Source: an uncultured Desulfatitalea sp. (GTDB lineage Bacteria > Desulfobacterota > Desulfobacteria > Desulfobacterales > Desulfosarcinaceae). Taken from it: 64,000 nucleotides of DNA. Positions 17,763-64,000 of the stretch are shown in pieces. The notes beneath the pieces were generated by a model. That model worked only from the letters and a program-made list of their open reading frames with translations. It did no database searches and was not told the origin of the DNA. How positions within the stretch are numbered: the first letter of the stretch is position 1; each line of letters opens with the position of its first letter. A program made the translations under genes and the position numbers. The stretch covers positions 62,001-126,000 of the forward strand of contig CALMNL010000003.1 of the NCBI GenBank assembly GCA_937868765.1, written 5' to 3'.

Positions 17763-18966
17763 GGGAGGACAAGATGGCCAAGGCAAAATTTGAGAGAAAG
17801 AAGCCCCATGTCAACGTAGGGACCATCGGTCATATTGATCATGGCAAGACGACATTGACGGCAGCGATCACCAAGCACAATGGGTTGAGAGGCCGTGCGG
17901 AGTTTGTGCCGTTTGATCAGATCGACAAGGCGCCCGAGGAGAAGGAGCGCGGTATCACGATTGCCACGGCGCATGTGGAGTACGAGTCCGAAAACCGTCA
18001 TTATGCCCATGTGGATTGTCCGGGGCACGCGGACTATATCAAGAACATGATCACGGGAGCCGCCCAGATGGACGGCGCGATTCTGGTGGTGGCGGCCGAC
18101 GACGGTCCCATGCCCCAGACGCGGGAGCACATTTTGCTGGCGCGTCAGGTGGGTGTGCCGCGCATCGTGGTATTCTTGAACAAGTGCGACATGGTGGACG
18201 ATGCGGAGCTGATCGAGCTGGTGGAGCTTGAGTTGCGCGAGCTGTTGACCAAGTACGAGTTTCCCGGGGACGATACGCCGATCATCCGTGGCAGCGCGCT
18301 CAAGGCGCTGGAGAGCGACGATCCGGAGAGCGCCGAGGCCAAGTGCATTTTCGAGTTGATGAATGCCATCGACACGTTCATTCCCGAGCCCAAGCGCGAC
18401 ATCGACAAGCCCTTCCTGATGCCCATCGAAGACGTGTTCAGCATTTCGGGTCGCGGCACGGTTGTGACCGGTCGCGTGGAGCGTGGCATCATCAAGGTGG
18501 GTGACAACGTGGAGATCGTGGGCATCCGTCCGACGTTAAAGACGGTGTGCACGGGCGTTGAGATGTTCCGCAAGCTGCTGGACGAAGGTCGGGCGGGCGA
18601 CAACATCGGCGTATTGCTGCGCGGCACCAAGCGTGAGGAAGTCGAGCGCGGCCAGGTCGTGGCGGTGCCGGGCACGATCACGCCGCATACCAAGTTCAAG
18701 GCCGAGGCGTACATTTTGAGCAAGGAAGAGGGGGGGCGCCACACGCCGTTCTTCAACGGGTACCGGCCTCAGTTTTACTTCCGGACCACCGATGTGACCG
18801 GTATTTTGAACCTGCCCGAGGGCGTGGAGATGGTGATGCCGGGGGACAATGTTGCGATCACGGCCGAGCTGATTACGCCGATCGCCATGGAAAAAGAGCT
18901 GCGCTTTGCCATCCGCGAAGGCGGACGGACGGTCGGCGCCGGTGTGGTGAGCGAAATCATCGAGTA
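17763..18966 (+). repeat. Long direct repeat, copy 1 (tuf gene and its ribosome binding site)
   Basis: About 1204 bases that recur at 32752-33955 with no difference in the segments I compared. Identity begins 11 bases before the ATG (at GGGAGGACAAG) and stops inside the stop-codon region, where the two copies become unrelated. Such sharp borders around the coding sequence are the mark of gene conversion between paralogous tuf genes. Confidence 0.9.
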
Positions 18967-32751: not shown

Positions 32752-33955
32752 GGGAGGACAAGATGGCCAAGGCAAAATTTGAGAGAAAGAAGCCCCATGT
32801 CAACGTAGGGACCATCGGTCATATTGATCATGGCAAGACGACATTGACGGCAGCGATCACCAAGCACAATGGGTTGAGAGGCCGTGCGGAGTTTGTGCCG
32901 TTTGATCAGATCGACAAGGCGCCCGAGGAGAAGGAGCGCGGTATCACGATTGCCACGGCGCATGTGGAGTACGAGTCCGAAAACCGTCATTATGCCCATG
33001 TGGATTGTCCGGGGCACGCGGACTATATCAAGAACATGATCACGGGAGCCGCCCAGATGGACGGCGCGATTCTGGTGGTGGCGGCCGACGACGGTCCCAT
33101 GCCCCAGACGCGGGAGCACATTTTGCTGGCGCGTCAGGTGGGTGTGCCGCGCATCGTGGTATTCTTGAACAAGTGCGACATGGTGGACGATGCGGAGCTG
33201 ATCGAGCTGGTGGAGCTTGAGTTGCGCGAGCTGTTGACCAAGTACGAGTTTCCCGGGGACGATACGCCGATCATCCGTGGCAGCGCGCTCAAGGCGCTGG
33301 AGAGCGACGATCCGGAGAGCGCCGAGGCCAAGTGCATTTTCGAGTTGATGAATGCCATCGACACGTTCATTCCCGAGCCCAAGCGCGACATCGACAAGCC
33401 CTTCCTGATGCCCATCGAAGACGTGTTCAGCATTTCGGGTCGCGGCACGGTTGTGACCGGTCGCGTGGAGCGTGGCATCATCAAGGTGGGTGACAACGTG
33501 GAGATCGTGGGCATCCGTCCGACGTTAAAGACGGTGTGCACGGGCGTTGAGATGTTCCGCAAGCTGCTGGACGAAGGTCGGGCGGGCGACAACATCGGCG
33601 TATTGCTGCGCGGCACCAAGCGTGAGGAAGTCGAGCGCGGCCAGGTCGTGGCGGTGCCGGGCACGATCACGCCGCATACCAAGTTCAAGGCCGAGGCGTA
33701 CATTTTGAGCAAGGAAGAGGGGGGGCGCCACACGCCGTTCTTCAACGGGTACCGGCCTCAGTTTTACTTCCGGACCACCGATGTGACCGGTATTTTGAAC
33801 CTGCCCGAGGGCGTGGAGATGGTGATGCCGGGGGACAATGTTGCGATCACGGCCGAGCTGATTACGCCGATCGCCATGGAAAAAGAGCTGCGCTTTGCCA
33901 TCCGCGAAGGCGGACGGACGGTCGGCGCCGGTGTGGTGAGCGAAATCATCGAGTA
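32752..33955 (+). repeat. Long direct repeat, copy 2 (tuf gene and its ribosome binding site)
   Basis: Second copy of the roughly 1204-base repeat that also occupies 17763-18966. It again starts 11 bases before the ATG and ends in the stop codon, here TAG followed by AAAG instead of TAATAACC. Confidence 0.9.
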
Positions 33956-54204: not shown

Positions 54205-55158
54205 ATGCTGCGGATACACAAAGCGCCCATGCTGGCAGGCGCGCTGCTCATACTCTTCTTCCCATGGATCGCCAGACAATTGCCGACCATCTCCCACTAT
54301 CCGGACCTGATGGTCTTTGCCGGCATCTATACATTGATTACCCTCGGCTTGAGCCTGCTGATGGGCTATGCCGGCCAGATATCACTGGGGCATGCCGCTT
54401 TTTTCGGCATCGGCGCCTATGTTTCCGGAGTGCTGAGCACGCAATTTGATTGCAATCCCTGGCTGGGAATGCTCCTGGGGGCGGCCGTCGCCGCCATGGT
54501 AGCCGTGATCGTGGGCGCCCCCTCCCTGAAGCTCCGCGGGCACTATCTGGCCATGGCCACTCTGGCTTTCGGCATCATCGTCAACATCGTCTTCCGGGAG
54601 GAAGCCCGCTGGACCGGTGGCCCGGACGGCATGATCGGTATTCCCGGCTTGTCCCTTTTCGGCCTGGCGCTCGATAGCGCGGAGAAATACTACTACCTCG
54701 TGTGGGGAATCGTCGCAGCCGTTTTCCTCTTCTCGGTCAACCTGATTCAATCGCCGGCCGGCCGGGCACTGCGCGCCATCCATGCCAGCGAAGCCGCCGC
54801 CGCGGCCATGGGCATTCCCATTGCGCGTTACAAGGTGATTGTTTTCGCCTATTCGGCGGTACTCGGCTCCCTGGCCGGCAGCCTTTACGCCCACTACATG
54901 AACTTCATCAATCCCGCCACCTTCGACCTTTTCTTCTCAATCAAGCTGGTCATCATGATCGCCCTGGGGGGCATGCACAGCATCTGGGGCGCCCTCGTCG
55001 GCGCGATCATCGTCGCTTTTCTGAGCCTGGAGTGGTTGCACTACTTCGAGGAGTTTGAAGTGGTTGTGTATGGCGCGATACTGCTGCTGGTCACGATCTT
55101 CATGCCTGAAGGACTCGTGGGCGCTCCAGCCAAACTGATGGCGCGGATGAGGAGATAA
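54205..55158 (+). CDS. livM: ABC transporter permease, LivM type
   Basis: 317 residues, multi-pass inner-membrane subunit. ITLGLSLLMGYAGQISLGHA and GRALRAIHASEAAAAAMGIP are LivM signatures. The ATG at 54205 follows AAAAGG; an upstream TTG at 54199 overlaps the livH stop and is a possible alternative. livG starts three bases after its stop. Confidence 0.94.
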   Translation: MLRIHKAPMLAGALLILFFPWIARQLPTISHYPDLMVFAGIYTLITLGLSLLMGYAGQISLGHAAFFGIGAYVSGVLSTQFDCNPWLGMLLGAAVAAMVAVIVGAPSLKLRGHYLAMATLAFGIIVNIVFREEARWTGGPDGMIGIPGLSLFGLALDSAEKYYYLVWGIVAAVFLFSVNLIQSPAGRALRAIHASEAAAAAMGIPIARYKVIVFAYSAVLGSLAGSLYAHYMNFINPATFDLFFSIKLVIMIALGGMHSIWGALVGAIIVAFLSLEWLHYFEEFEVVVYGAILLLVTIFMPEGLVGAPAKLMARMRR

Positions 55159-55161
55159 GCG

Positions 55162-55959
55162 GTGGCGGCGGAATCTGTCCAAGATCCCATTCTGGAAATC
55201 GAAGAACTGGTCATGGCTTTCGGCGGCCTGACCGCCCTGATGAATATCGACCTGTGTGTACCCCGGGGCAGGATCAAAGCCGTCATCGGTCCCAACGGCG
55301 CAGGCAAAACGACGCTCTTCAACATCATCACCGGTGTCTTCCCGCCCACCGAAGGCCTGATTCGCTTCAACGGCCGCGCCATCAGCGGGTGCAAACCCCA
55401 CCACATCGCAGCGTTGGGCATCTCCCGCACCTTTCAGACCGTTGAACTTTTCAACAACATGACGGTCCTGGAAAATGTGATGACCGGCCGCCACCTGCGT
55501 ATCCGCAGTTCATTTTTCGGAAGCGGCCTGGCCCTGCCCAGTCTGCGCCGGCAGGAAAAAGGCCTTGTCGAACAAGCCATGGCCCTGCTGGAATTCATTG
55601 GCTTGGCGGCCAAGCGGGATATCATGGCCGACGCCCTGCCGCTGGGCGAACGCAAGATTCTGGAGATCGGCCGCGCTCTGGCCACCGATCCGCAACTGGT
55701 CTGCCTGGATGAGCCGGCGGCCGGGCTCAATGAGACCGAAACCGAAGCGGCCGCCCATTTGATCCAGGCCATCCGGCAAAAGGGTATCACCGTCCTGCTG
55801 GTCGAGCACGACATGAAAATGATTATGGATATTTCCGATGAGATCGCCGTGCTCAATTACGGTGAGAAGATTGCCGAGGGCACGCCCAGGGAGATCCAGA
55901 ACAATCCCCTGGTCATCGAAGCCTACCTGGGACAGGGCGGCGGATTCGATATCCGGTAA
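55162..55959 (+). CDS. livG: ABC transporter ATP-binding protein, LivG type
   Basis: 265 residues from a GTG with GAGGAG upstream. Walker A is GPNGAGKTTLFN. The signature motif is LPLGERKILEIGRAL, slightly different from the usual LSGG form, as is common in LivG. Walker B is VCLDEPAAGLN, and the H-loop is LLVEHDMKMI. Energises uptake together with LivF. Confidence 0.94.
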   Translation: MAAESVQDPILEIEELVMAFGGLTALMNIDLCVPRGRIKAVIGPNGAGKTTLFNIITGVFPPTEGLIRFNGRAISGCKPHHIAALGISRTFQTVELFNNMTVLENVMTGRHLRIRSSFFGSGLALPSLRRQEKGLVEQAMALLEFIGLAAKRDIMADALPLGERKILEIGRALATDPQLVCLDEPAAGLNETETEAAAHLIQAIRQKGITVLLVEHDMKMIMDISDEIAVLNYGEKIAEGTPREIQNNPLVIEAYLGQGGGFDIR

Positions 55960-56014
55960 AAATGGAAAATTTGAGTTGAAAGTTATGAATCGGAAGCAGT
56001 ACAGTTGAAATCGT

Positions 56015-56728
<714 letters not shown>

Positions 56729-57133
56729 ATGGACGACGATGTCAAGAAGAAGACCCGCGAAACGGCTGCGCTGTACTTCCAGGGTGTAACCGAAGAAAAA
56801 CCCGTGGATCTCTGGCGTGCCTTCGATCCCGAATTGGGCAAACAATTTTCGCTGTTCATCACCGGACGGCTCTACGGCCGGGAGAAAATACCGCATCCCA
56901 CGCGCCAACTGGTGACCGTGGCGGTGCTCACCGTGCTGGGACGTACCGATGAGCTCAGACTGCACATCCTGGCGGCCCTAAACGTGGGCTGTACACCGCA
57001 GCAGATTGCCGAGGTGATCTTCCAGACCTTCACCTACGCCGGCGTGCCCACGGTCAACATGGCATTGAAGGTCCTGCGTGAAGTTTTGCGGGAAAAGGGA
57101 TTGTGGCCGCTGGCGGGGAAGGCTGAAGGCTGA
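56729..57133 (+). CDS. Carboxymuconolactone decarboxylase-family protein
   Basis: 134 residues. The all-helical CMD fold is recognisable from LGKQFSLFITGRLYGREKIP, RQLVTVAVLTVLGRTDELRL and GCTPQQIAEVIFQTFTYAGVP. There is no CxxC pair, so it is not an AhpD-type peroxidase; it looks closer to the PcaC branch, whose known member decarboxylates 4-carboxymuconolactone. The true substrate in an anaerobe is unknown. GGAGG lies just before the ATG, and the gene follows livF without a gap, so it is probably translated from the liv mRNA. Confidence 0.85.
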   Translation: MDDDVKKKTRETAALYFQGVTEEKPVDLWRAFDPELGKQFSLFITGRLYGREKIPHPTRQLVTVAVLTVLGRTDELRLHILAALNVGCTPQQIAEVIFQTFTYAGVPTVNMALKVLREVLREKGLWPLAGKAEG

Positions 57134-57223
57134 ATTACGAAAAAGGAGGAGAATCACGGCTTGTCGAGTTCCTGAGATTTCAGGGAATTTCTTTCACAAC
57201 TAAAAGAGGTTGGAGAAGCACGC

Positions 57224-58957
57224 ATGCGACCCTATTTCAAGAAGATGAATGCCTTCGGTCGGGCGCTCAACCCAGGTCAGATCAAAAGCGCCCAGGAGAA
57301 TGTCGCCCAAATCAAAAAAGTGGAAGCCCAGATCGACGAGGCCGCGGAAAAGGTCAAGAACGCCGGCTTTTCCACCGAAGAGATCAACTCGCGCGGGCAA
57401 TTGACCGTCTTCCAGCGTCTCAAATACCTGGTGGACGAAGGCACCTGGTGCCCGCTGCACACCCTCTTCAACCCAGCGGATAACGTCGAAGGAACGGACA
57501 ATGTCATCGACGGCCTGGGAAAGATTTCCGGGAAATGGGCGGTCATCATCGGGTTCGACAACAAGGTGATGGCCGGCGCCTGGCTGGCCGGGCAATATGA
57601 AAACATCCTGAGAGTCACCGATCTTTCCAAGCGCTTCAACATTCCCCTGGTATGGCTGGTCAACTGCTCGGGCGTCAAGCTTACCGACCAGGAGAAATTC
57701 TACGCCAACCGGCGCTGCGGCGGTACCCCCTTCTTCCGCCACGCGGAGTTGAACGAGCTGGGCATTCCCATCCTGGCGGGCATCTACGGCACCAACCCGG
57801 CCGGCGGCGGCTACCAGAGCATCAGTCCCACGGTACTCTTCGCCCACAAGGACTGCAACATGGCCGTCGGCGGCGGTGGGATCCTCAGCGGCATGTCGCC
57901 CAAAGGCTTTTTCGATGAAGAAGGCGCCGAACTGCTCATCAAGGCCGCCAAACAATTTAAAGCCGAACCGCCGGGCAGCGTGGGCGTGCATCACGACCAG
58001 ACCGGCTTTTTCCGGTACGTCTACGAGACCGAGACCGAAGTGCTCGACGGGATCAAGGAGTACATGCGGGACATGCCGGCCTACAGCCCCAAATTCTTCC
58101 GGGTGGCCGACCCGGTGGAACCGCTCTTCGACGCCGAAGACCTCTACGCCCTGGTTCCTTTCAACCAGAAGCAGATTTACGACTTCGACGAGGTGCTCGC
58201 CCGTCTGGTGGACGGCAGCGAGCACATGGAGTTCAAACCCGGCTACGGGCCGGAGATCTACACCGGCCTGGTCAAGATGGACGGCTTCCTGGTAGGTGTC
58301 ATCGGTAACCGGCAGGGCTGGCTGGGGGAGAACTATCCCGAATACGCCGATTACTCCGGTATCGGCGGCAAGCTTTATCGGCAGGGACTCATCAAGATGA
58401 ACGAGTTCGTGACCTTCTGCAGCCGGGACCGCGTACCCGTGATCTGGTTCCAGGATACGTCGGGCATCGATGTGGGCGACATCGCCGAAAAGGCGGAACT
58501 GCTTGGCCTGGGCCAGTCGCTGGTATACTCCATCCAGCAGAGCGGCGTGCCCATGATGCTCGTCGTGCTGCGCAAGGGCACGGCCGCCGCCCACTACGTC
58601 ATGGGCGGCCCGACGGCCAACCGCCAGAACGCCTTCACCCTGGGTACGGCCACTACCGAAATCTACGTCATGCACGGGGAAACCGCAGCGGCCGCCAGCT
58701 TCTCGCGCCGTCTGGTCAAGGAAAAGGCCGCCGGCAAGCCGCTCAAGCCGGTCATTGACAAAATGAACGAGATGGTCAAGCAGTACTACGACAATTCCCG
58801 TCCGGCCTACTGTGCCCGCATGGGCATGGTGGACGAGATCGCCAAGCTGAGCGAGCTGCGCAAGTACCTGCGAGCCTTCGCCGGGGCCGCCTACCAAAAC
58901 CCCAGGTCCATCTGCCCGCACCACCAAATGATATTGCCGCGCGTTATAAAAGGATAG
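57224..58957 (+). CDS. gcdA: Glutaconyl-CoA decarboxylase carboxyltransferase (alpha) subunit
   Basis: 577 residues, close to the 587 of the Acidaminococcus enzyme. The two crotonase-like carboxyltransferase halves are visible: the first around GTNPAGGGYQSISPT with GGGGILSGMSPKG, the second around QDTSGIDVGDIAEKAELLGL and VMGGPTA. It moves the carboxyl group of glutaconyl-CoA to biotin; in the full complex the beta subunit then pumps sodium. In anaerobic degraders of benzoate and related acids this step makes crotonyl-CoA. The biotin carrier, beta and delta subunits are not in the window. Another acyl-CoA carboxylase role is possible. GGAG lies about ten bases before the ATG. Confidence 0.86.
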   Translation: MRPYFKKMNAFGRALNPGQIKSAQENVAQIKKVEAQIDEAAEKVKNAGFSTEEINSRGQLTVFQRLKYLVDEGTWCPLHTLFNPADNVEGTDNVIDGLGKISGKWAVIIGFDNKVMAGAWLAGQYENILRVTDLSKRFNIPLVWLVNCSGVKLTDQEKFYANRRCGGTPFFRHAELNELGIPILAGIYGTNPAGGGYQSISPTVLFAHKDCNMAVGGGGILSGMSPKGFFDEEGAELLIKAAKQFKAEPPGSVGVHHDQTGFFRYVYETETEVLDGIKEYMRDMPAYSPKFFRVADPVEPLFDAEDLYALVPFNQKQIYDFDEVLARLVDGSEHMEFKPGYGPEIYTGLVKMDGFLVGVIGNRQGWLGENYPEYADYSGIGGKLYRQGLIKMNEFVTFCSRDRVPVIWFQDTSGIDVGDIAEKAELLGLGQSLVYSIQQSGVPMMLVVLRKGTAAAHYVMGGPTANRQNAFTLGTATTEIYVMHGETAAAASFSRRLVKEKAAGKPLKPVIDKMNEMVKQYYDNSRPAYCARMGMVDEIAKLSELRKYLRAFAGAAYQNPRSICPHHQMILPRVIKG

Positions 58958-58961
58958 AATC

Positions 58962-59000
58962 GGTGGCGGCCGTCAGCCCAGGGCTTCGACGGCCGCCACC
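58962..59000. repeat. Perfect inverted repeat at the gcdA-hrpA junction
   Basis: GGTGGCGGCCGTC and GACGGCCGCCACC form a 13-base perfect stem with a 13-base loop. It overlaps the 3' end of hrpA and lies five bases after gcdA. Convergent transcripts would both form it. No T-run follows on either strand, so it is at best a non-canonical terminator. Confidence 0.7.
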
Positions 59001-62000
59001 AAAGCATCCAGGCGCTTGGCCGATACCGGCTGGGCCGTCTTGATCTCCGGGGCGAAGATGGAGATTTTGTACTCCTCCACCATCCAGATGAGTTCTTCCA
59101 GAGCCTGACGCTTTTCGAGGCTGCTTTGAGGAATCAGGCTCTCGGTCAGTTTTTCCACCTGGGTTTCATAGACGGCCGCTTTCTGGGCCTTGACACGATC
59201 CTTTTCCAGATCAACAGCGGCGCGTTCGGCGCGCAGCACCAAGGCCCGGAGGTAGCGCGGCAGTTGGGACAACCGCGCCATGGGATAGCGCATGATGAAA
59301 TCCTCCGGCACGAGCTTCTGCATGCCGGCGCGCAGATCATCCAACAGCGATTTCAGGGCGGCATTCGCGGGATGGGCTCGTTCCAAGTCCAGCAGGCGCA
59401 ACCGCGCGGCCTGGTAGGCCTCCAATGAATCCAAAAGATGTCGCCGTATCTCCTGACCCCAGGCAGCCGTGTTCTCGTTGTGAATCGCTTCCAGCAACGC
59501 CTCGTATTCGGCCGCCGTGCGGATATCCCTGGCGAGATGATCATCGAGCACCCGTTCCACCAGCCGGGTCTCCAGGGCCGGGCGACCGCCGAAGTAACGG
59601 CAATGGGCATCGCGCTCGTAGGGCAGGGCCAGATTCTTGCGCAAGTATTTGATTTCCCCTCCGAGGCTTTTCTGGAGCAACGCGCGTACGCCCCGGGGAT
59701 GCGCAAGACGGGCTTCGGCGATATCGGCAAAGGCGGTAAGGAAAACACCTTGCGCGCGGGCTTCCAAGGTCGGATAGGCGGTCCATTGCCGGCGGCCCTG
59801 TCCCTTGAGCAGGATGGTCTCCGGCAAGTCGCCGAAATCCCAAGCGCTGATGGGTCCATGCTCCCACTGCCGGAGGGCCTTTTCGAAGGCCTGGGAAGCA
59901 TCTGCGGGCGCATCGCTCTGCAGTATGGACGGGTCCCGGTCCGAACGCACCACCCGGCCGTCGTCGTCGGTGACGGCGATACGCATGCGCAGGTGGTCGG
60001 GCAGAACGCGTTCGTTCCAGGTCGAGGCCGGAATAGCGAGGCCCCAGCGCTGGCGGATGAAACGACTCAGGGCCGTGTTCAAGCCTATCTGACGTTGGAC
60101 GGGCATCTCTGCCGCTATGATCTCCACGGTCTCGTTGACCGGCACCAACTGTTTGCGCAGATCCTTGGGCAGCGCCTTGATGAGGGCCGCGATCTTCTCC
60201 TTGAGCAGACCGGGAACCAGCCACTGGAAGCTTTCGGCGGGTAAGGCGGCGGCCGCGCGCGCCGCTACGCGTACGGTTACACCGTCGTTTTCTTCGCCAG
60301 GCGCGAATCGGTAAGCGCAGGGCAGGGCACGGCCATCGGCCTCGATGCGGTCCGGGAACTGGGACAAGGCTTCATCGTCCGGTCGCTGGGAAAGCAGGTC
60401 TTCTTCCCTAAGGCGCAGAAAGCCATCGTCACCGGCCTGGGCGATCTTCAGCTTCAACCCCCGCAGGTCATACACGTCGTCCAGCCGCTCACGATAAAAT
60501 TCGAACAACTGCTGCTCGTCCACCAGCAGATCCTTGCGGCGCAGGCGGTCCTGCATCTCTTCCACCTGGGCGATCATGCGCCGGTTGTGCTGCATGAATG
60601 CCAGCGGCCGCGAAACGTCGCTCTCGATGAGGGCATGCCGGATGAAAATCTCGGTGGCCTCTTCGGGATGGATCGGGCCATAGGGCCGTGTCCGGCGGTC
60701 GATGATCAGGCCGTAGAGGCTGACCTGCTCGGTGGCCACCACCGCTTCGCGGCGCCGTTCCCAGTGGGGATCGAGGTGGGTGTACTTGCACTGCTCCTTG
60801 CCCAGGGGTTCGATCCAGGCCGGATCGATCACCGCCGCACAGCGGGCAAAGAGCCGTGAGGTTTCGACCATCTCCGCGGCCACGATCCACTGGCCGGGGT
60901 TCTTGAAAAGCCCCGAGCCGGGGAAGACCATGGCCTGGCGACCATACGCCGCCTGGAAGATCTGCTTCTCCTTCTTCGCGGCGATGTTGGATAAAAAGCC
61001 GCTCAAAATCGATTGGTGGACGGCCGCATAGTCACTGTGGCCCAGATCGCCGGGCGCATCCGGCGGCGTGCTCGGCCGGGATGGCCGGATACCGTTTTCG
61101 GCCAGCTCTCCCAGGATCTGACCGTGCACATCCCGCCATTCGCGCATGCGCCGGAACGAGAGAAAATGGTTGCGGCAGAACTGTTTGACCTGCTGCCAGC
61201 TGGTGCGGCGGGTGGCGACCTGGTCGTAGGCGTGCCAGATCCGCAGCAGGGTCAGAAAGTCCGAGGTCGGATCGGCAAAGCGGCCATGGGCGGCATCGGC
61301 CTCGGCCTGACGTTCGGCCGGACGTTCCCGGGGGTCCTGGATGCTCAGCGCCGCGGCGAGGATGGCCACATCGGCCAGGCAATCACGCTGGCGTGCCTCT
61401 AGGAGCATGCAGGCCAGGCGCGGGTCCAGGGGCAGTCGGGCCATGAGGCGACCCTTGGCGGTCAAGGCGAACCGGCCGCCACGGTCTCGCTTGCGCTTGG
61501 CCGGCACGATGGCCCCCAACTCCAGCAGCAAAGCATAGCCGTCCTGAATGCTGCGCGGCGCGGGCGGGTCGATGAATGAAAAGGCGTCCACATCCCCCAA
61601 CCCCAGGGCGATCATGCGCAGAATGACCTCGGCCAGGTTGGCGCGCAGGATTTCGGGCAGCGTGTATTTGGGGCGCTGTTCGTAATCTTCCTGGCCGTAC
61701 AGCCGGATGCAGATGCCGTCGGCCACGCGGCCGCAGCGACCCTGGCGCTGGTCGGCGCTGCTCTGGGCGATGGGTACCACCGGCAGGGTGTTGGTGCGCG
61801 TGCGCGGCGTATACTGGCTGATGCGCGCCAGGCCGGTATCGATGACATAGCGGATGCCCGGAATGGTGATGGAGGTTTCGGCCACGTTGGTGGCCACGAT
61901 GATCCGCCGACCCTGGGACGGGTGGAAGACGCGCTGCTGCTCGCTGGCCGACAGGCGCGCGAACAGGGGAATGACTTCGGCCGAAGGGTACCGGCGTCCC

Positions 62001-62941
62001 TGGAGCAGCTCGCAGGTGTCGCGGATATCCTGCTCGGTGGGCATGAAGATCAACACATCCCCCTGGCGGCGCTCGCGGTGGAGCAGATCCATGGCCTTGG
62101 CCGCCTGCTCGATGTGGGTACTCTCCTCCCCATTGTCGGCCAGGTTCGCCAGGTATCGTGTCTCCACCGGATACATGCGCCCCGAGACCTCGATGATCGG
62201 TGCGCCGTCGAACGCCCGGGCGAACTTCTCCGTATCGATGGTGGCCGAGGTGATAATCACCTTCAGGTCCCGGCGGTGGCGCAACAACTGCCTGAGCAGC
62301 CCCAGGATGAAATCGATATTGAGGCTGCGTTCATGCGCTTCGTCGACGATCAGGGTATCGTACTGGTTGAGCTGGCGGTCCGAATGGGCTTCGGCCAGCA
62401 GGATGCCGTCGGTCATCAGCTTGATGCGCGTATCGGGCCCGGTGGACTCCTGGAAGCGGATCTTGACCCCCACAGTCCGCCCCACCGTTTCGCCCAACTC
62501 TTCGGCGATGCGCCGTCCCACGGTCAGGGCTGCAATGCGCCGCGGCTGGGTCACCCCCACGGTGCCATCTATACCCCGGCCGGCGGCCAGGCACAGTTTG
62601 GGCAGTTGGGTGGTCTTACCCGAGCCGGTTTCACCGGCCACCAACACCACCGGGTGGGCCTGGATGGCCGCGATGATCTCCTCGGCTTTGGCGCTGATGG
62701 GCAGAGCGGTGTCGACGGCCAGGGGCAGCCCCTGGGACTGGCGCGCCTCGCGCCGGGCAATGGATTGCGAGAGGCGGCGGGCCAGACGTTCGCAGCGGGT
62801 GTTCAACCTGGCTGGCGCCAGTCCCTGTCTGGCCGCCAGACGGATGTCCTGTATCTCGCGCAAAGCCGCTACGCGGTCCACGGTCAGCGCATTGGGCATT
62901 TGTTCCGTAAGGGCTTTGATATGTTCGCTTATTGACGTCAC
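58973..62941 (-). CDS. hrpA: ATP-dependent RNA helicase HrpA (DEAH box)
   Basis: 1322 residues (1300 in E. coli). DExH helicase that rescues stalled ribosomes in E. coli. Motif I is GETGSGKTTQLPKLC, motif II DEAHERS, motif III SATID, and motif VI QRQGRCGRVADG; the winged-helix, ratchet and OB regions follow, then the long HrpA-specific C-terminus. The start is GTG with AGGA upstream. It converges on gcdA, and the 141 bases beyond the start separate it from the last gene. Confidence 0.96.
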   Translation of the reverse strand: MTSISEHIKALTEQMPNALTVDRVAALREIQDIRLAARQGLAPARLNTRCERLARRLSQSIARREARQSQGLPLAVDTALPISAKAEEIIAAIQAHPVVLVAGETGSGKTTQLPKLCLAAGRGIDGTVGVTQPRRIAALTVGRRIAEELGETVGRTVGVKIRFQESTGPDTRIKLMTDGILLAEAHSDRQLNQYDTLIVDEAHERSLNIDFILGLLRQLLRHRRDLKVIITSATIDTEKFARAFDGAPIIEVSGRMYPVETRYLANLADNGEESTHIEQAAKAMDLLHRERRQGDVLIFMPTEQDIRDTCELLQGRRYPSAEVIPLFARLSASEQQRVFHPSQGRRIIVATNVAETSITIPGIRYVIDTGLARISQYTPRTRTNTLPVVPIAQSSADQRQGRCGRVADGICIRLYGQEDYEQRPKYTLPEILRANLAEVILRMIALGLGDVDAFSFIDPPAPRSIQDGYALLLELGAIVPAKRKRDRGGRFALTAKGRLMARLPLDPRLACMLLEARQRDCLADVAILAAALSIQDPRERPAERQAEADAAHGRFADPTSDFLTLLRIWHAYDQVATRRTSWQQVKQFCRNHFLSFRRMREWRDVHGQILGELAENGIRPSRPSTPPDAPGDLGHSDYAAVHQSILSGFLSNIAAKKEKQIFQAAYGRQAMVFPGSGLFKNPGQWIVAAEMVETSRLFARCAAVIDPAWIEPLGKEQCKYTHLDPHWERRREAVVATEQVSLYGLIIDRRTRPYGPIHPEEATEIFIRHALIESDVSRPLAFMQHNRRMIAQVEEMQDRLRRKDLLVDEQQLFEFYRERLDDVYDLRGLKLKIAQAGDDGFLRLREEDLLSQRPDDEALSQFPDRIEADGRALPCAYRFAPGEENDGVTVRVAARAAAALPAESFQWLVPGLLKEKIAALIKALPKDLRKQLVPVNETVEIIAAEMPVQRQIGLNTALSRFIRQRWGLAIPASTWNERVLPDHLRMRIAVTDDDGRVVRSDRDPSILQSDAPADASQAFEKALRQWEHGPISAWDFGDLPETILLKGQGRRQWTAYPTLEARAQGVFLTAFADIAEARLAHPRGVRALLQKSLGGEIKYLRKNLALPYERDAHCRYFGGRPALETRLVERVLDDHLARDIRTAAEYEALLEAIHNENTAAWGQEIRRHLLDSLEAYQAARLRLLDLERAHPANAALKSLLDDLRAGMQKLVPEDFIMRYPMARLSQLPRYLRALVLRAERAAVDLEKDRVKAQKAAVYETQVEKLTESLIPQSSLEKRQALEELIWMVEEYKISIFAPEIKTAQPVSAKRLDALVAAVEALG

Positions 62942-63082
62942 TTGGATCCTGCACTACTTAATCGGCATTTGGTTGCATCTCGATACGGAATGTTCCTATC
63001 ATACCTTGTATCGGTTTTGAACCTGAGTACGCCAAAGCGTGGCGCGCAATTAACGATCCCAACCCATTCAAAGGAGACGCCA

Positions 63083-64000
63083 ATGAAATTCGTGATCATC
63101 GGTGGAGACGCAGCCGGCATGAGCGCCGCCAGCCGCGCCAAGCGCCAGGACCCCTCCCTGGAGGTGATCGTTTTCGAACAGACCCAGACCGTTTCTTACA
63201 GCGCCTGAGGGATCCCCTACAATATCTCCGACCCCCGGCGGGCGGTCGACGATTTGGTAGTGCGTACCGCAGAGGCGTTCCGCAAGAAATCAGGAATCGA
63301 TATGCGGCTGGGCCATCGGGCCGAAGCGATCGATATAGCCGGGGGGCATGTCACCGGCAGTGGGCCGGACGGCAAATCGTTCGCCCTGGGCTATGACCGT
63401 CTGCTCATCGCCACGGGCGCGGCCCCCATCGTACCCCGGCGGCCAGGTTTCGACCGCCCCGAAGTGGTGGTGGTCAAAACCCTGGAAGACGCCCAGGCCA
63501 TCAAGGCGCGCCTGCAAAGCGGCAGCGTCAAACGGGCGGTCATCATGGGAATGGGGTACATCGCCATGGAAATGGCCGAGGCGTTGAGCCTGCGGCAGGT
63601 CACGGTGACCATGGTCAAGCCCCGGGCCGAACTGCTTCCCTGGCTGGATGCCGAACTGGCGGCCACCGTGCGCGGGGAACTGGAGCACCATAAGGTCGAA
63701 TTGCGCACCGGCTTCGACGTCGCGCGTATCGAGGCAGGTAAGGGAAGCAATGTGGCGGTGGTCGATGCCAGCGGTGCCTCCCTGGCCGCAGACCTGGTGA
63801 TCGTGGCCGTGGGCGTGCAGCCCAACAGCCGCCTGGCCGCCGATGCCGGGCTGCAACTGGGGCCGGCCCGCGCCATCGCCGTGGATCGCCAAATGCGCAC
63901 CTCCAACCCGGCCATCTATGCCGCCGGCGATTGTGCCGACGCCTTCCACGTGGTCACCGGCCAGCGCGCCTGGATTCCCCTGGCTCTGCGGGCCAACCGC
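63083..64000 (+). CDS. CoA-disulfide reductase-like flavoprotein, probable selenoprotein (3' end outside window)
   Basis: FAD- and NAD(P)H-dependent disulfide reductase of the CoA-disulfide reductase/NADH oxidase group. The N-terminus has the FAD Rossmann motif VIIGGDAAGMSAASRAKR. At residue 42 the reading meets TGA (63206-63208) in the context SYSA-TGA-GIPYNI, exactly where relatives have the redox cysteine (S-Y-x-x-C-G-x-P-Y). After it the frame stays open for 264 codons to the window end and keeps family features: LLIATGAAPIVP, the NAD motif VIMGMGYIAMEMAEAL (with M and Y in glycine positions of the usual GGGYIG form), and AIYAAGDCAD. I therefore read TGA as selenocysteine. AAAGGAG lies seven bases before the ATG. 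A nonsense mutation is the alternative. Confidence 0.82.
63229..63248 (+). promoter_or_regulatory. SECIS-like hairpin downstream of the in-frame TGA
   Basis: CGACCCCC pairs with GGGCGGTCG (one bulged C) around a GGC loop, giving an eight-base-pair stem. The apical G is about 31 bases after the T of the TGA, inside the distance range of bacterial SECIS elements, which lie in the coding sequence just after UGA and carry a G in the loop. The fold is short and GC-rich, so chance is possible. Confidence 0.5.

Follow-up and report, generated by a model that had tools for sequence, protein, structure and literature searches.

A selenoprotein family of Deltaproteobacteria, the 'FAD-dependent oxidoreductase (CoA-disulfide reductase)' (TIGR03385, motif UGxP, WP_011365774.1), is listed as a high-confidence prediction in two reviews (PMC13188914; PMC9312934), both of which, where they list it, credit it to Kryukov and Gladyshev 2004. 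The selenoprotein named 'NADH oxidase' in Geobacter metallireducens (PMC1794560) is probably the same family, and the GOS survey lists one sequence (PMC2398784). Non-selenium relatives belong to a group in which a single Cys beside FAD and a tightly bound CoA acts on disulfides, persulfides and polysulfides (PMC6026696, PMC7969121). A previous sequence-only reading of the locus described here had supposed that selenoprotein forms of related oxidoreductases might already be known, and these listings agree with it.

We studied a gene of this group, from a bacterium of sulfate-reducer type, at the right end of the window, i.e., the whole 64,000-nt stretch of DNA analysed (G000:C3:62001-126000), beyond which the contig extends. 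The main features are collected in Table 1. The start codon, ATG at 63083, and the Shine-Dalgarno motif in front of it were read directly from the sequence. The sequence-only reading had drawn attention to an in-frame TGA in the context SYSA-TGA-GIPY followed by 264 open codons up to position 64000, and the frame reads exactly so; the 3' part outside the window, whose state had been left for checking, is intact. The full gene (G000:C3:125083-126441) has 452 codons with codon 42 as the sole in-frame TGA, and terminates at TAA/TAG at the equivalent of window position 64441. Its 452-aa product presents the FAD/NAD domains and a complete dimerisation domain (Pfam Pyr_redox_2, Pyr_redox and Pyr_redox_dim). 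In comparison with its nearest relative (L031, 91% identical), dN was 0.059 and dS 0.344 over the 400 codons downstream of the TGA, and 0.033 and 0.511, respectively, upstream of it. Both flanks are under purifying selection, and dN lies well below dS after the TGA.

Table 1 Features of the predicted selenoprotein locus (window coordinates)
Feature	Position	Strand	Description
HrpA-type DEAH-box RNA helicase	58973..62941	-	Divergent upstream neighbour; Pfam DUF3418, Helicase_C, OB_NTP_bind; marks the syntenic locus, no part of the enzyme
Shine-Dalgarno AAAGGAG	63070..63076	+	6 nt before ATG
Predicted selenoprotein gene, 5' 306 of 452 codons	63083..64000	+	CoA-disulfide-reductase-like pyridine nucleotide-disulfide oxidoreductase; frame with one TGA
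UGA codon 42, predicted selenocysteine	63206..63208	+	At the single redox-active Cys column, SYSA-U-GIPY
SECIS-like hairpin	63229..63248	+	8 bp with one bulged nucleotide; apical loop GGC (63237-63239), 28 nt after UGA

TIGR03385 was the nearest model and the motif of the product is U42-G-I-P, so that the gene is a further example of the catalogued family and no new kind of selenoprotein. The catalogued protein (WP_011365774.1) shares the enzyme group, the Sec position in U-G-x-P and the deltaproteobacterial host, and is likewise a prediction from sequence. The window protein falls in a subfamily (MKFVIIGGDAAGMSAASRAK...NISDPRR) that often occurs in the order as a Cys form; it was set beside the catalogued family by description only, and we found no description of the subfamily in the literature searched, most subscription journals being outside it.

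Column 42 was inspected in 80 homologous loci from separately assembled GTDB species genomes. It held TGA in eight of them (L031, L032, L037, L043, L056, L065, L077 and L087) and Cys elsewhere, with TGC or TGT wherever the codon was read automatically and three SFSACGMPY variants scored as Cys from the translation. The earlier reading had placed Sec at the single catalytic Cys of the family, and this stands: the column holds Cys in each of the subfamily's 88 Cys forms and TGA in the Sec forms. The UGA is thus conserved in at least one other organism and aligned with a conserved redox Cys of homologues, each of which is a criterion for a selenoprotein. When 291 genomes of the order were searched, two further groups of Sec forms came to light: a six-member clade from another family (L150, L158, L159 and L161-L163) and, at about 40% identity, a distant subfamily (L141-L143 and L145). 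A DNA pattern for Y-x-A-UGA-G-x-P-Y matched 37 places in about 780 genomes (17 of 395 phylum genomes and 21 of 389 order genomes), against none for the reversed pattern used as control. Thirty-six of the 37 places belong to the CoA-disulfide-reductase-like family (two run into masked bases); the exception, L188, lies outside the family and lacks a hairpin. The pattern was present in 9 of 11 sampled genomes of the window's genus, and Sec forms occur in many families of the phylum. The distant subfamily encodes Sec widely across the phylum (L141, L142, L143, L145, L172, L175, L179-L187, L198 and L199).

These data bear on the reading in which the TGA arose by sequencing error or by a true nonsense mutation in what would be a mis-sequenced or dying Cys enzyme, as the Cys at column 42 of related genomes would allow. 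We regard it as highly improbable: the same codon is TGA in many separate assemblies, through most of the sampled genus and in other families, dN is well below dS after the TGA, the hairpin in the window's register is confined to TGA forms, and the full Sec machinery is present (see below). Relatives carry the TGA as well, contrary to the earlier concern that it might stand for TGC or TGT. Sequencing error, pseudogene and UGA reassignment were all rejected as candidates, the conserved TGA by itself refuting error and nonsense.

The genome contains selA (614 bits), a full-length selB (361 bits), selD (386 bits) and a tRNA-Sec gene, selC (72 bits), with anticodon TCA according to ARAGORN (UCA in RNA); the four genes that were to be looked for are therefore all present. 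Co-occurrence of SelB did not discriminate between the forms, since SelB-type matches were found in all 32 genomes checked, Cys-form and Sec-form alike, in four of them only below the cut-off. The selD gene (L026, G000:C6:34195-35121) carries an in-frame TGA of its own where the catalytic residue is encoded (GAG-U-ASK) and counts as the genome's second selenoprotein.

Published rules for bacterial SECIS elements ask for an apical loop of 3-9 nt with G in its first two positions, a stem of 4-16 bp, a distance of 16-37 nt from the UGA and a minimum free energy of at most -7.5 kcal/mol (PMC13188914 Fig. 2). The hairpin downstream of codon 42, CGACCCCC-GGC-GGG-C-GGUCG, with -12.5 kcal/mol, lies within all these limits. 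In its register the seven sequences of the set that belong to the window's clade each formed all eight pairs and L087 formed seven; no Cys form exceeded six of eight. Over the ten sequences used for pair counts, two pairs were changed on both sides, and the covariation score was reached by 8 of 500 shuffles, modest support for a SECIS. The best constrained hairpin averaged -9.7 kcal/mol in 21 Sec forms and -5.9 in 90 Cys forms; against synonymous shuffles of equal GC the mean z was -1.79 and -0.17, respectively (p 2e-9, inexact since the rows are related). Taken alone the window hairpin is unremarkable, 16 of 300 synonymous shuffles being equally good, and the case for a SECIS therefore rests on how Sec forms compare with Cys forms. 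Unconstrained folding of the 65 nt after the UGA gave no excess of stability over shuffles (z -0.28), and an Rfam scan of 55000-64000 gave no match.

Measured from the UGA to the start of the apical loop, the distance is 28 nt for the window's clade and for L087 (GGC), 27 nt for L056, L065, L077, L176 and L177 (GGUC), 20 nt for the second clade (GGC, GGU or GGA) and 21-22 nt for the distant subfamily. The hairpins of the second clade and the distant subfamily sit on codons other than the window's, and those of L065, L077 and L177 are weaker (-5.9 to -7.3), slightly short of the published energy limit. Several hairpins of the distant subfamily show compensating base changes (GUCGG/UCGAC, AUCGG/UCGAU).

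An open frame would be obtained under any sense reading of the UGA, including near-cognate readthrough or a reassigned codon. Such a reading has very little to recommend it, because reassignment is contradicted by the ordinary TGA stops of many related genes, that of L031 among them, the TGA appears solely at one redox Cys column, and selA, selB, selC, selD and the hairpin are present. We conclude that the gene almost certainly encodes a selenoprotein, as predicted from the aligned sequences; the sequence-only proposal of a real selenoprotein is supported by the conserved TGA, the four sel genes and the intact 3' part. UGA42 would be decoded by SelB with Sec-tRNA(UCA), guided by the hairpin.

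The product scored 395 bits with its best NCBIfam model, TIGR03385 (cut-off 578.8), 384.6 bits with PRK09564 (cut-off 458) and 235 bits with PRK13512 (cut-off 394). No score reaches the curated cut-off of its CoA-disulfide reductase model, and a substrate name is therefore not earned. U42 is the single catalytic residue in the SYxxCGxPY context, with no second Cys nearby and no CxxxxC pair. Among solved relatives the product matched Pyrococcus CoADR (E 6.5e-89), Npsr (7.7e-84) and the CoA-persulfide reductase 8a56 (2.2e-79). Judged from these sequence relationships, it is very probably a Sec flavoenzyme, whatever its substrate, that belongs with the CoA-disulfide reductases and NAD(P)H persulfide reductases. 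The flanking genes, HrpA and YjbQ, offered no functional clue and did not point to sulfur metabolism.

The Pyrococcus horikoshii CoA disulfide reductase (4fx9, 3kd9, 5l1n; PMC6026696) aligned over its full length, its catalytic Cys falling at the column where the window protein has Sec. The His367 located above that Cys appears in the alignment to be kept as His367 of the window protein, whereas Tyr65, Tyr66 and Pro67, which narrow the channel of the Pyrococcus enzyme, align with V, R and T, so that the channel may be wider here. The persulfide reductase Npsr shares the FAD/NAD core and the catalytic column, but its C-terminal rhodanese domain is absent from the window protein, which ends at residue 452 after the dimerisation domain. 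The Staphylococcus aureus CoA disulfide reductase (1yqz, 4em3) has the same fold and single-Cys chemistry and is more distant than the other relatives (E 5e-51). The same genome also encodes a Cys paralogue (L168, G000:C7:6811-8136), 38-39% identical, with a longer frame of 583 codons, a length that would fit a persulfide reductase carrying an additional domain at its C-terminus.

Function as an NADH oxidase or NADH peroxidase, acting on O2 or H2O2, seems unlikely for this selenoprotein. Selenolates react quickly with peroxides, which would suit a peroxidase, and yet enzymes of the NADH oxidase/peroxidase type have an active-site His at residue 10, where every readable member of the present family has Ala. 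The name NADH oxidase is borne by the best solved match by sequence, 6ruz, and by the selenoprotein family of PMC1794560; the streptococcal oxidase model, however, gave 242 bits for a cut-off of 600, far under it and behind the CoA-disulfide reductase models.

We lean towards a CoA-disulfide reductase or a CoA-persulfide/polysulfide reductase working through a Sec-Se-S-CoA intermediate, by analogy with the characterised relatives. The protein would be a homodimer-type FAD enzyme with selenocysteine as its sole catalytic residue. By the same analogy, NAD(P)H would reduce FAD, and FADH2 would in turn reduce the Sec42-Se-S-CoA selenylsulfide; the freed selenolate would attack a CoA disulfide, a CoA persulfide or a polysulfide, with release of a thiol or sulfide and re-formation of the mixed bond with CoA.

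About 14 homologous loci have the HrpA gene upstream in the opposite orientation. Downstream, YjbQ (UPF0047) follows the reductase gene in both Sec forms (L030, L031, L037, L043 and L087) and Cys forms (L034, L040, L058, L067 and L082). This shared position supports orthology of the Sec and Cys forms. Mapping the Sec label on the tree needed six changes, at least three of them forced by well-supported branches, counts that cannot separate gain from loss. Grouping all 18 Sec rows from the window's subfamily in a single clade was rejected (p-AU 1e-4, quick tree with thinned Cys rows). The scattered Sec forms, the rejected clade and the differing hairpin distances point to independent Cys/Sec exchanges, and the unrelated hairpin positions between groups argue for separate gains of Sec. 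We hold the balance to be even on a fuller scenario in which, at one orthologous locus (HrpA / reductase / YjbQ), the catalytic Cys was swapped for Sec several times independently, the SECIS growing at different sites of the coding sequence and shaping the protein (DPRR or DPGR where the Cys forms vary). If true, the repeated exchange would be a natural replicate experiment in selenoenzyme evolution. The literature searched, outside of which most subscription journals lie, held no mention of Sec forms scattered among Cys orthologues of one locus, of the clade rejection or of the differing hairpin distances.

Co-adaptation with Sec is possible at two residues of the subfamily. At residue 44 the 88 Cys forms all have Met, whereas 11 of the 17 Sec forms have Ile or Leu. 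Residue 433 belongs to the GPxWDP stretch in the C-terminal domain and lies outside the window; Val occupies it in 66 of the 88 Cys forms and in none of the 17 Sec forms, which have Thr, Ala or Ser. A test by independent pairs, which allows for descent and had four supported pairs, gave no significance for residues 44, 52 and 433 against Sec. Since Val or Leu occupies the position of residue 433 in the distant Sec subfamily, the change there is not generally required.

With this locus a selenoprotein family known until now from predictions gains a well-supported subfamily, whose hosts are anaerobes of the Desulfobacterales group, in which persulfide and CoA redox chemistry may matter. An annotation pipeline would report such a gene as two pieces, a fragment of 41 residues and a truncated reductase. 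Close relatives differ in whether they have the Sec or the Cys orthologue at this locus and so provide natural matched pairs, with which one could measure the contribution of selenium to a one-cysteine flavoenzyme, including any kinetic gain that Sec may bring, and follow the origin of a SECIS inside a coding sequence.

Elsewhere in the window, the GTPase part of the SelB model matched two places about equally, 17810-18679 (194 bits) and 32799-33668 (193 bits). These are most likely two copies of the EF-Tu gene, 15 kb apart, and the paired EF-Tu-like arrangement recurs in relatives.
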